Source of the DNA: Chloroflexota bacterium
GTDB lineage: Bacteria; Chloroflexota; Anaerolineae; Anaerolineales; Villigracilaceae
DNA length: 64,000 nucleotides
Assembly: GCA_016235445.1 (NCBI GenBank)
Contig: JACRLB010000015.1
Span: forward strand, 124,001-188,000
Direction of reading: 5' to 3'
Shown: positions 6,789 through 37,928 of the stretch, piece by piece
How positions within the stretch are numbered: the first letter of the stretch is position 1
How the letters are laid out: every line of letters starts with the position of its first letter
Program-made: the position numbers and the translations under genes
The notes under the pieces: generated by a model
The model's database searches: none
The model's input: only the letters and a program-made list of their open reading frames with translations
Told to the model about the DNA's origin: nothing

Positions 6789-6936
6789 TTAACTCACCTT
6801 ACGCGGTTTAATCCCGAAGGGATGATATTGATTGACGAACGATGACACCCCTTCGGGGTTGAATCGCCTGCTTGCCAAAATCTATAATCATTTGACCCCT
6901 GCGGGGTCTTCGAGTAAATCGCGTAAGGTGAGTTAA
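6789..6936. mobile_element. MITE-like element family M2, uninterrupted copy
   Basis: This 148-bp element has near-perfect terminal inverted repeats starting TTAACTCACCTTACGCG and internal short hairpins such as CCCCTTCGGGG and CCCCTGCGGGG. It has no coding capacity. A second copy at 16867-17252 is interrupted by an M1 element, and this copy shows the empty site (AAATCGCGTAAGG). It begins 4 bp after the brnA-like stop codon. Confidence 0.85.
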
Positions 6937-10913: not shown

Positions 10914-11073
10914 TGTGTGCAAGCAAAGGTTGTTAGCATTTCCCTTTTCCCTCACCCCAAGTATGAAGACTTTTCGCCGTGTCGACTCCCCCCTCTCCCT
11001 GAGGGAGAGGGCAGGGTGAGGGGTGTTCACAGCCCAGCGAACAATCTACCTCCCCTGACAACCTTTGCTTGCA
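10914..11073. mobile_element. MITE-like element family M1, copy A
   Basis: A 160-bp non-coding element with terminal inverted repeats TGTGCAAGCAAAGGTTGT and an internal CCCTCTCC-GGAGAGGG hairpin. The flanks ACGGCCGCC (10905-10913) and ACAGCCGCC (11074-11082) are a likely target duplication with one mismatch. The insertion split a GC-rich hairpin (GGCGGCTGTTGC at 10886 on) downstream of the PilZ gene. Confidence 0.88.
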
Positions 11074-11107
11074 ACAGCCGCCTTTATTCCTGCCTGAAAC
11101 CTGAAAC

Positions 11108-16866: not shown

Positions 16867-17252
16867 TTAACTCACCGTACGCAGTTCAATCCCGAAGGGA
16901 TGGCAGGATGATAGAAAATTGCGTGAAAGGATTCCAAATCCCGAAGGGATGATATTGATTTTACAAGCCTATGACACCTCTTCGGGGTTGAATTGCCTGC
17001 TTCCCAAAATCTATAATCATTTGACCCCTTCGGGGTCTTCGAGTAAATCGCGTGTGCAAGCAAAGGTTGTCAGGGGAGGCAGATTGAATGCTGCGCGGTG
17101 AACCCCTCACCCTGCCCTCTACCCTTACGGGCACACGTCCCTCAGGGAGAGGGGGGAGTCGACACGGCGAAAAGTCTTCATACTTGGGGTGAGGGAAAAG
17201 GGGAATCCTGACAACCTTTGCATACACACAAATCGCGTAAGGTGAGTGATTA
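16867..17252. mobile_element. MITE-like element family M2, copy interrupted by M1
   Basis: The left end is TTAACTCACCGTACGC and the right end GCGTAAGGTGAGTGATTAA. Inside are the same CCCGAAGGGAT, CCTCTTCGGGG and CCCCTTCGGGG units as in the copy at 6789-6936, with the CCCGAAGGGATG unit present twice. It is split at 17053 by M1 copy B. Its right end abuts the pseudouridine synthase gene and contributes an AAGGTGAG sequence. Confidence 0.85.
17053..17229. mobile_element. MITE-like element family M1, copy B, nested in M2
   Basis: This 177-bp element lies in opposite orientation to copies A and C, with terminal inverted repeats TGTGCAAGCAAAGGTTGTCAGG. It is flanked by the exact 8-bp duplication AAATCGCG (17045-17052 and 17230-17237). 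The uninterrupted M2 copy near 6916-6923 has one AAATCGCG, proving the insertion point. Confidence 0.93.
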
Positions 17253-22169: not shown

Positions 22170-22388
22170 TGTGTGCAAGCAAAGGTAGTCAGCATTCCCC
22201 TTTTCCCTCACCCCAAGTATGAAGACTTTTCGCCGTGTCGACTCCCCCCTCTCCCTGAGGGACGTGTGCCCGTAAGGGTAGAGGGCAGGGTGAGGGGTTT
22301 TCACAGCCCAGAAGGGTAGAGGGCAGGGTGAGGGGTTTTCACAGCCCAGCGAACAATCTACTTCCCCCGACAACCTTTGCTTGCACAC
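22170..22388. mobile_element. MITE-like element family M1, copy C
   Basis: About 219 bp, with terminal inverted repeats TGTGCAAGCAAAGG and CCTTTGCTTGCACA. It has the same core as copy A but an extended hairpin arm, and a 38-bp internal segment (22273-22310) is repeated directly after itself (22311-22348). Flanks TTGTGGTT and TCGTGGTC may be a decayed target duplication. It lies between a minus-strand promoter and the GT4 gene. Confidence 0.85.
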
Positions 22389-36771: not shown

Positions 36772-37928
36772 TCCAATCTTTGCAGGATGTGACTGACCGC
36801 CGTGGAGGCCGGCCCGCCAAGGGATTGGATCAGCGCAGTCTTTGCGCCCGCAATCTGGTTCGCCTCTGCCCGCCCCCGCAGTTGGGTGACTGCTTCGACG
36901 GCTTGATACACGCCTGATGCGCCCCCGGGGAATCCACGCGCTTTCATGCCGCCCATCGTGGCGCAGGGGAGTTTGCCCGTTCTGCTTATCGCGCCATCCG
37001 CGGCGAGACGCCAGCCTTTTCCTTTGATTGCAAACCCAACGGCTTCGAGTTGCAGGGCGGCATAGATGCTGAATGCGTCGTGATATTCAAAGAAATTAAT
37101 TTGATCCAAAATGACGCCCGCCTGCTTCATGGCTTTGCCTGCCGAGATTTGCGCGGTGTCAAAGTATAAAATGTCTTTTCTGTCGTGCAATGCCAGCGTG
37201 TCAGACGAGGCGGCGGAGCCTGCGATCTTCACGAGTGGACTTTGCCAATTGGACGGGACCAGCTCGCGGCGAGTCAGAACGAGCGCGGCCGCGCCATCCG
37301 CGTTGGGGGCTATGTCAAACATGTTGAGCGGGTCGCTGACCATTTCTGCTTTTGAATAGGTTTCGGGTTTGATGGCTTTTCTGAACATCGCATTTTTATT
37401 TGCGACGCCATTGGCATGGGCGGTTAATGCAAAGTTGGCAAAGCCATTTGCGGGGACAGCATATTCGTGCATGTATCGCTTCATCAACAGCGCGGCTTGT
37501 GAAGTGGGGGTGATGCCCTGCACGGCTTCAAAATCGGAATCGGAAGTGGTGGCGAGAGCCTCGTCCACGCCCGAACCGATCTTGTCTGTAAATTTTTCCA
37601 CGCCGACGATGAGCGCCACATCCACCATGCCGCTGGCAATGGCGAGATAGCCTTGCCGCAACGCCGCCCCGCCCGATGCGCCCGCGGCCTCGACGGTGAC
37701 GGCTTCGATGCCAGTGAGGCCGGCATAGTCTGCGATGAGCGCCCCGAGATGCGCCTGCCGTGAAAGATTTGGCGCGAGCATGTTGCCCACGAAAAGCGCC
37801 TGCGGTTTCAACCCGCCCGCGTCGTGAAGCGCATCGTGAATGGCCGCGTACGCGAGATCGCGCAGGCCAATATCCCAATGTTCGCCGACTTCTGTTTGTC
37901 CGATTCCTGCGATAACTACGTCTGTCAT
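36768..37928 (-). CDS. Archaeal-type acetoacetyl-CoA thiolase homologue with replaced catalytic residues
   Basis: A 386-residue thiolase-fold protein of the archaeal HMG-CoA-synthase-linked type; SDTLALHDRKDI is a subgroup hallmark. At the nucleophile site the usual EAACASGG reads EAAGASGG (Gly83), and the C-terminal GHP motif reads GFP (Phe333). NPSGG is replaced by CATMGG, while His283 in YHDAF is kept. Two independent losses argue against a read error and suggest a non-catalytic subunit. It is downstream of HMG-CoA synthase on the same strand, 73 bp away. In archaea, thiolase, HMGCS and a DUF35 protein form a complex; no DUF35 gene is seen here. Confidence 0.85.
   Translation of the reverse strand: MTDVVIAGIGQTEVGEHWDIGLRDLAYAAIHDALHDAGGLKPQALFVGNMLAPNLSRQAHLGALIADYAGLTGIEAVTVEAAGASGGAALRQGYLAIASGMVDVALIVGVEKFTDKIGSGVDEALATTSDSDFEAVQGITPTSQAALLMKRYMHEYAVPANGFANFALTAHANGVANKNAMFRKAIKPETYSKAEMVSDPLNMFDIAPNADGAAALVLTRRELVPSNWQSPLVKIAGSAASSDTLALHDRKDILYFDTAQISAGKAMKQAGVILDQINFFEYHDAFSIYAALQLEAVGFAIKGKGWRLAADGAISRTGKLPCATMGGMKARGFPGGASGVYQAVEAVTQLRGRAEANQIAGAKTALIQSLGGPASTAVSHILQRLD

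Follow-up and report, generated by a model that had tools for sequence, protein, structure and literature searches.

In a stretch of 64,000 nucleotides from a Chloroflexota bacterium (the whole of the DNA analysed, here called the window), one copy of the short repeat M2 is split by a copy of a second short repeat, M1. The locus raises the question of how M1 came to lie inside M2 and which enzyme could have moved it. The interrupted M2 copy was located at positions 16870-17247 of the forward strand, with terminal inverted repeats ACTCACC.../...GGTGAGT. M1 lay within it on the same strand at 17053-17229, or at 17052-17229 when its canonical terminal G was included. Two copies of AAATCGCG flanked the element on the forward strand, at 17045-17052 and 17230-17237; if the G at 17052 is assigned to the element, the left copy ends at 17051. 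Counting the terminal G in M1 gives an element of 178 bp and a 7-bp duplication; leaving it out gives 177 bp and 8 bp. Direct reading of the window showed that the right copy of AAATCGCG is followed by TAAGGTGAG, and bore out the original prediction that M1 is nested in M2 between two copies of this sequence. The insertion point fell in the right terminal repeat of M2, and with M1 and one duplication removed the split M2 measured about 193 bp.

Within M1, the left terminal inverted repeat GTGTGCAAGCAAAGGTTGTCAG occupied 17052-17073 (forward strand) and the right one 17208-17229 (reverse strand). The ends first described were present at the M1 copies, but the family end, GTGTGCAAGCAAAGGTTGTCAG, begins with GTGTGC and is one base longer than had been noted. 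A palindromic core module, CCCCTCACCC...GGGTGAGGG, was located at 17103-17195 of the forward strand. The copy belongs to the 178-bp subfamily of M1, which contains an 18-bp segment, TACCCTTACGGGCACACG (17120-17137, forward strand), not found in the 160-bp subfamily.

The same target was found without an insertion elsewhere in the window. The M2 copy at 6789-6936 read GAGTAAATCGCGTAAGGTGAG continuously, and the uninterrupted element, a short-form M2, spanned 6792-6933 on the forward strand. Uninterrupted AAATCGCGTAAGGTGAGT also ended two further M2 copies (L248 and L251), and two others (L244 and L259) differed from it at one base. Because other M2 copies carry the target stretch uninterrupted, M1 entered a pre-existing M2, and the proposed empty site and the proposed order of events, M2 first, both hold. 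None of the 14 other both-ended M2 loci coincided with an M1 place, which answers the earlier question of whether M2 always contains M1. The insertion of M1 into M2 is real and the earlier interpretation was right; the two loci form a clean natural before-and-after pair for a bacterial MITE.

Two more M1 copies were identified in the window, both on the reverse strand. The copy at 10915-11076 (L053) belonged to the 160-bp subfamily and had GCCGCCT (7 bp) on both sides and one damaged end. The copy at 22171-22388 (L042) had flanks agreeing at 6 of 8 positions and contained a partial internal duplication of the core of about 40 bp. The 14-base end TGTGCAAGCAAAGG occurred seven times in the window with up to 2 mismatches, against 0.75 expected, and none of 100 shuffles reached seven. 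The three M1 copies account for six of these matches with their ends; the remaining one, at 37021, was not M1.

At least 47 copies of M1, whole or partial, were present in the window's own genome. The search for M1 returned 46 matches, of which 40 were main places and 6 were secondary matches to an end; the main places were obtained by scoring 40 of 111 first-look candidates, so that 40 is a lower bound, and several were partial. End searches added 6 loci, of which L059 is a fragment about 60 bases long, and one more copy was found at L327. Alignment of 31 near-complete copies resolved the 178-bp and 160-bp subfamilies, which differ by the 18-bp segment; pairwise identity among these copies, without gaps, was 83.8-99.4% (median 94.3%).

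Target duplications were scored at 46 loci of this genome (L018-L063), which yielded 34 copies with both ends within 7 mismatches. Exact duplications of 8 bp were found in 15 of the 34 and of 9 bp in five, so that 20 carried a perfect duplication of either length and 14 did not. Exact 7-bp duplications occurred in two copies, those at 17052 and 10915 of the window, and an exact 6-bp duplication in one (L061); four had an 8-bp duplication with one mismatch. In the remaining seven (L019, L020, L028, L029, L042, L052 and L063), two or more positions disagreed at 8 bp and there was no exact repeat of 6-7 bp either; damage to their ends accounts for part of this. Duplications of 8 bp with at most one mismatch numbered 19 of 34, compared with a mean of 0.54 and a maximum of 5 in 1000 shuffles of the flanks. 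A second set comprised 82 elements from other loci (L064-L213, identical ones removed). Here exact duplications numbered 45 at 8 bp, 3 at 9 bp and 3 at 7 bp; at 8 bp, 52 elements had no more than one mismatch, where the control averaged 0.66 and never exceeded 4. M1 copies in the genome thus do carry direct duplications, and the 8-bp length first proposed needs only a small amendment: the target duplication of M1 is mostly 8 bp and sometimes 9.

M1 has the characters of a MITE. It is shorter than about 300 bp and non-coding, has terminal inverted repeats of about 22 bp and occurs as dispersed copies with target duplications; its ends resemble those of autonomous transposons found in relatives (L137 and L139/L214, described below). 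The window M1 folded as DNA was more stable than all of 200 dinucleotide shuffles (z -4.1). For 33 copies with sufficient flank, the empty site was rejoined as a 300-bp stretch, and an open frame was kept in two (L029 and L061), compared with 67% of 2000 stretches of that length drawn at random from the window. The few open frames across these sites indicate that M1 is strongly depleted from coding sequence and mostly intergenic, a placement that reflects insertion preference or selection. An insertion preference upstream of sigma-A promoters has been reported for several members of the ISKra4 group.

M1-type ends were also common in relatives. They enclosed different cores, with duplications, in three related genomes (G005, G006 and G017), and 24 of the 57 genus genomes, counting the own one, carried them with up to one mismatch. 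At least 115 public genome stretches (genome_contigs) contained them, and the titles of the 80 matches listed were nearly all Anaerolineales or other Chloroflexi; a scan of viral_contigs with the end pattern returned one contig. One genome (G067) had a very high count of 151 M1-type MITE ends.

Two pairs of good ends about 1.5 kb apart were found, and each enclosed a long ORF. The first element, L137 (2340-3877 of its contig), was 1538 bp long with an ORF of 477 aa; the second, L139 (995-2489), was 1495 bp long with an ORF of 463 aa. Their left ends were identical to that of M1 at 21 and 20 of 22 bases, respectively. Both proteins exceeded the cut-off of 205 bits for the NCBIfam ISKra4 transposase model NF033572 (224.5 bits for L137 and 228.5 for L139), which places them at the level of the ISKra4 family. 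Against Pfam UPF0236 (cut-off 24.3 bits) L137 scored 27.1, above the cut-off, and L139 23.5, slightly below; no other Pfam family exceeded its cut-off in either protein. The candidate catalytic residues D211, D317, D338-W-Y-H341 and E425 were identical in the two proteins. The L139 element was also represented in G008 (locus L214), with identical ends and flanks, and was bounded by exact 9-bp repeats, CCATAAGCA. No target duplication was seen in the flanks of L137. The contig of L137 is filed under a Moraxellaceae bin, but contig names trace it to the C15 assembly, which also yielded an Anaerolineales bin rich in these ends; it is likely mis-binned. Two other candidates for intact elements were rejected, L103 (2189 bp) because a complete 128-bp MITE stands at its start and L219 (1601 bp) because its ends are poor.

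A search of the 57 genus genomes with the transposase proteins matched 12, several only through short pieces at contig ends or relatives at 27-43% identity. M1-type ends were present in 9 of these 12 genomes compared with 15 of the 45 others (p 0.012, relatedness ignored). In the own genome the protein search gave no match (4 candidates scored), nor did the ISKra4 family model; in 14 control genomes the same model matched in two, above cut-off in none. The partner transposases matched no phage record and, by sequence, no solved structure. A transposase gene with matching terminal repeats was therefore found in relatives (L137 and L139/G008) and not in the own genome, and the proposal of a DDE transposase acting in trans gained matching ends in relatives while no transposase was found in the same cell. 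Since no ISKra4 transposase was found in the own assembly, M1 is now probably immobile, or the helper was left unassembled. The intact partner elements are now available for tests of trans-mobilisation.

Taken together, the ends and the duplications point to M1 being a MITE that owes its mobility to an ISKra4-family (Mutator-like DDE) transposase acting in trans, a reading to which we assign a probability of about 90%. The non-coding element of 160-178 bp, with its terminal inverted repeats of about 22 bp, would be the substrate; a transposase of this family, encoded elsewhere, would act on the M1 ends in trans, and insertion would then produce the target duplication of 8-9 bp. The source of the enzyme in the window's lineage may have been lost or may be unassembled, and we infer from sequence comparison that the ISKra4-family transposase is the enzyme that mobilised M1 in the past. 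M1 was also considered as a simple internal deletion of elements of the L137/L139 type, and this was rejected. M1 and the intact elements had only about 22 bp per end in common; by eye nothing but the terminal repeats matched, the core being a palindromic repeat in its own right, which argues against a plain internal deletion.

The enzyme could instead belong to another DDE family that makes 8-bp duplications (for example IS256, IS6 or ISAs1), the likeness to ISKra4 ends being secondary. Duplications of 8 bp are common to several DDE families, and the ISKra4 gene was not found in the own genome. Nevertheless, the two elements recovered in which such ends enclose a long ORF both encode ISKra4 transposases, the ends agree at 20-21 of 22 bases and the mixture of 8- and 9-bp duplications suits the p-MULT group, so that we regard a different family as unlikely. 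It is very unlikely that M1 spread as a REP-like palindrome through a Y1 (RAYT) transposase or gene conversion. Such a route would agree with the occurrence of the REP-like core without M1 ends, but M1 has exact boundaries and duplications of 8-9 bp, and precise ends with such duplications are unexpected from Y1 transposition. There is hardly any room for the notion that the flanking repeat in M2 is a coincidence or that M1 and M2 are one composite repeat. In its favour, M1 and M2 are alike in being short and having inverted repeats, and the M1 fragment at L059 has an M2-like element nearby; the notion is refuted by the uninterrupted target in other M2 copies and by M1 copies elsewhere whose own duplications differ.

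M1, moved as we suppose by an ISKra4-family enzyme, represents a MITE family that is new but of a known sort, now tied to ISKra4-family transposons. According to the parts of PMC3942029 consulted, p-MULT 4 elements (ISAzba1, ISMich2 and ISKra4) are found in Chloroflexi, and the prokaryotic elements in question produce repeats of 8 or 9 bp. The M1 duplications are likewise 8-9 bp, and the partner transposases pass the cut-off of the family model; M1 differs from members of the family in having no transposase ORF. A similar pairing concerns the cyanobacterial Nezha MITE, which, according to the consulted text of PMC3049150, has been proposed to owe its mobility to an intact IS whose ends resemble its own (ISNpu3-like). 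Like M1, and as judged from its description, Nezha is a MITE paired with an intact IS of similar ends, but its host phylum differs from that of M1. ISNpu3 is presumably a member of the ISKra4 family. GTAG repeats are recorded in Chloroflexi in the portion of PMC3733652 consulted. The core of M1 resembles REP palindromes and GTAG- or CGTC-tagged palindromes in being palindromic and rich in G+C and in occurring apart from M1 ends in relatives as well, and differs from them in lying inside MITE ends with DDE-type duplications. The open-licence literature consulted in part, including PMC10969869, PMC3733652, PMC3942029 and PMC3049150, gave no account of these MITEs in those parts. The present set extends through a genus of uncultured Anaerolineales and is linked to one transposase family.

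M2 is a second MITE, with ends ACTCACCTTACGC (6792-6933 and 16870-17247 of the window; L244-L261). The lengths of 15 other both-ended elements included seven of 191-193 bp and five of 142-146 bp, the copy at 6792 among the latter. By eye, M2 appeared to have A+T-rich duplications of 5-6 bp. A 16-base end pattern of M2, with up to one mismatch, matched 31 of the 57 genus genomes, control matches being scattered. M2-type ends reached very high counts in two genomes (126 in G071 and 109 in G019). In one contig (G003 C174) M2 ends stood 783 bp apart; reading of this interval did not reveal an M2 transposase, and the sole frame of more than 80 codons between the ends was a stretch of 118 aa.

The palindromic core of M1 was not confined to M1. 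Parts of it were found without M1 ends in G012, G017, G018 and G021 (about positions 50-104; 33-103 in G017), and shorter core matches without these ends in G001, G009 and G010. By eye, M2-type ends enclosed the same palindromic module at L322 (C4:121482) of the own genome and at L010 of G012. One REP-like module is thus carried by MITEs of two different end types. Rfam searches of 10 chosen loci (E up to 1) produced three matches, none of which reached its gathering score, and left the core and the 18-bp motif unnamed; at gathering scores the window yielded one tRNA and neither the core nor the motif.

The 18-bp segment that separates the M1 subfamilies, TACCCTNACGGGCACACG, forms a small CCC/GGG hairpin followed by CACACG. 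The exact segment was listed in 19 of 57 genus genomes, the own genome counted. With up to one mismatch there were 109 matches in 26 of 57 (35 of them in the own genome, mostly M1), compared with 20 matches in 19 genomes for the reversed pattern; the level of this control means that the one-mismatch genome count says little and that some matches arose by chance. Two such matches (L361 and L370) were plain coding sequence by reading. A 24-base flanked version with up to 2 mismatches matched 20 of 57 genus genomes (reversed-pattern control 3), and an exact 15-base pattern matched all seven genomes chosen for it (control none). Among 400 genomes drawn from the phylum, a flanked version with up to one mismatch matched six, four of the same genus (the own genome counted) and two of the same family, and the control matched one. 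A scan of viral_contigs with the motif returned one contig with 3 sites. No mention of the motif strings was found in the open-licence literature.

To describe the surroundings of the motif, 76 distinct contexts were compared, M1 copies included and the loci partly hand-chosen. By a simple string rule 35 of the 76 were a CCCTCACC...GAGGG palindrome. Perfectly complementary arms of at least 6 bases at the motif were found in 11 of the other 41, compared with 41 of 5000 random window places; these 11 are partly non-independent, since the members of L393/L396 and of L404/L407 seem to be one locus seen in two genomes. Of the 30 contexts left over, many were variants of the first palindrome or lay beyond the offset limit, and at some contexts, for example L275, L293 and L399, no such arms were present. 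The motif occurred within at least four kinds of palindrome, in stems or at tips, with perfect arms of 12-19 bp in L332, L391, L393, L396 and L403. It was present in both M1- and M2-type MITEs and, by eye, as variant tandem copies in L394/L397. One reading, which we consider less likely than not, is that the motif is a nano-element not described before: it would be either a tiny mobile hairpin inserting at palindrome tips and arms, or the conserved apex of an unrecognised structured element with a variable stem. It is a concrete and searchable puzzle. In two related genomes (L328 in G061 and L329 in G017) the same REP-like palindrome together with the 18-bp motif lay in frame within a frame of 733 aa, to which the palindrome adds ...PLPLRAHVP...; by eye this frame resembled the adenylation domain of a nonribosomal peptide synthetase.
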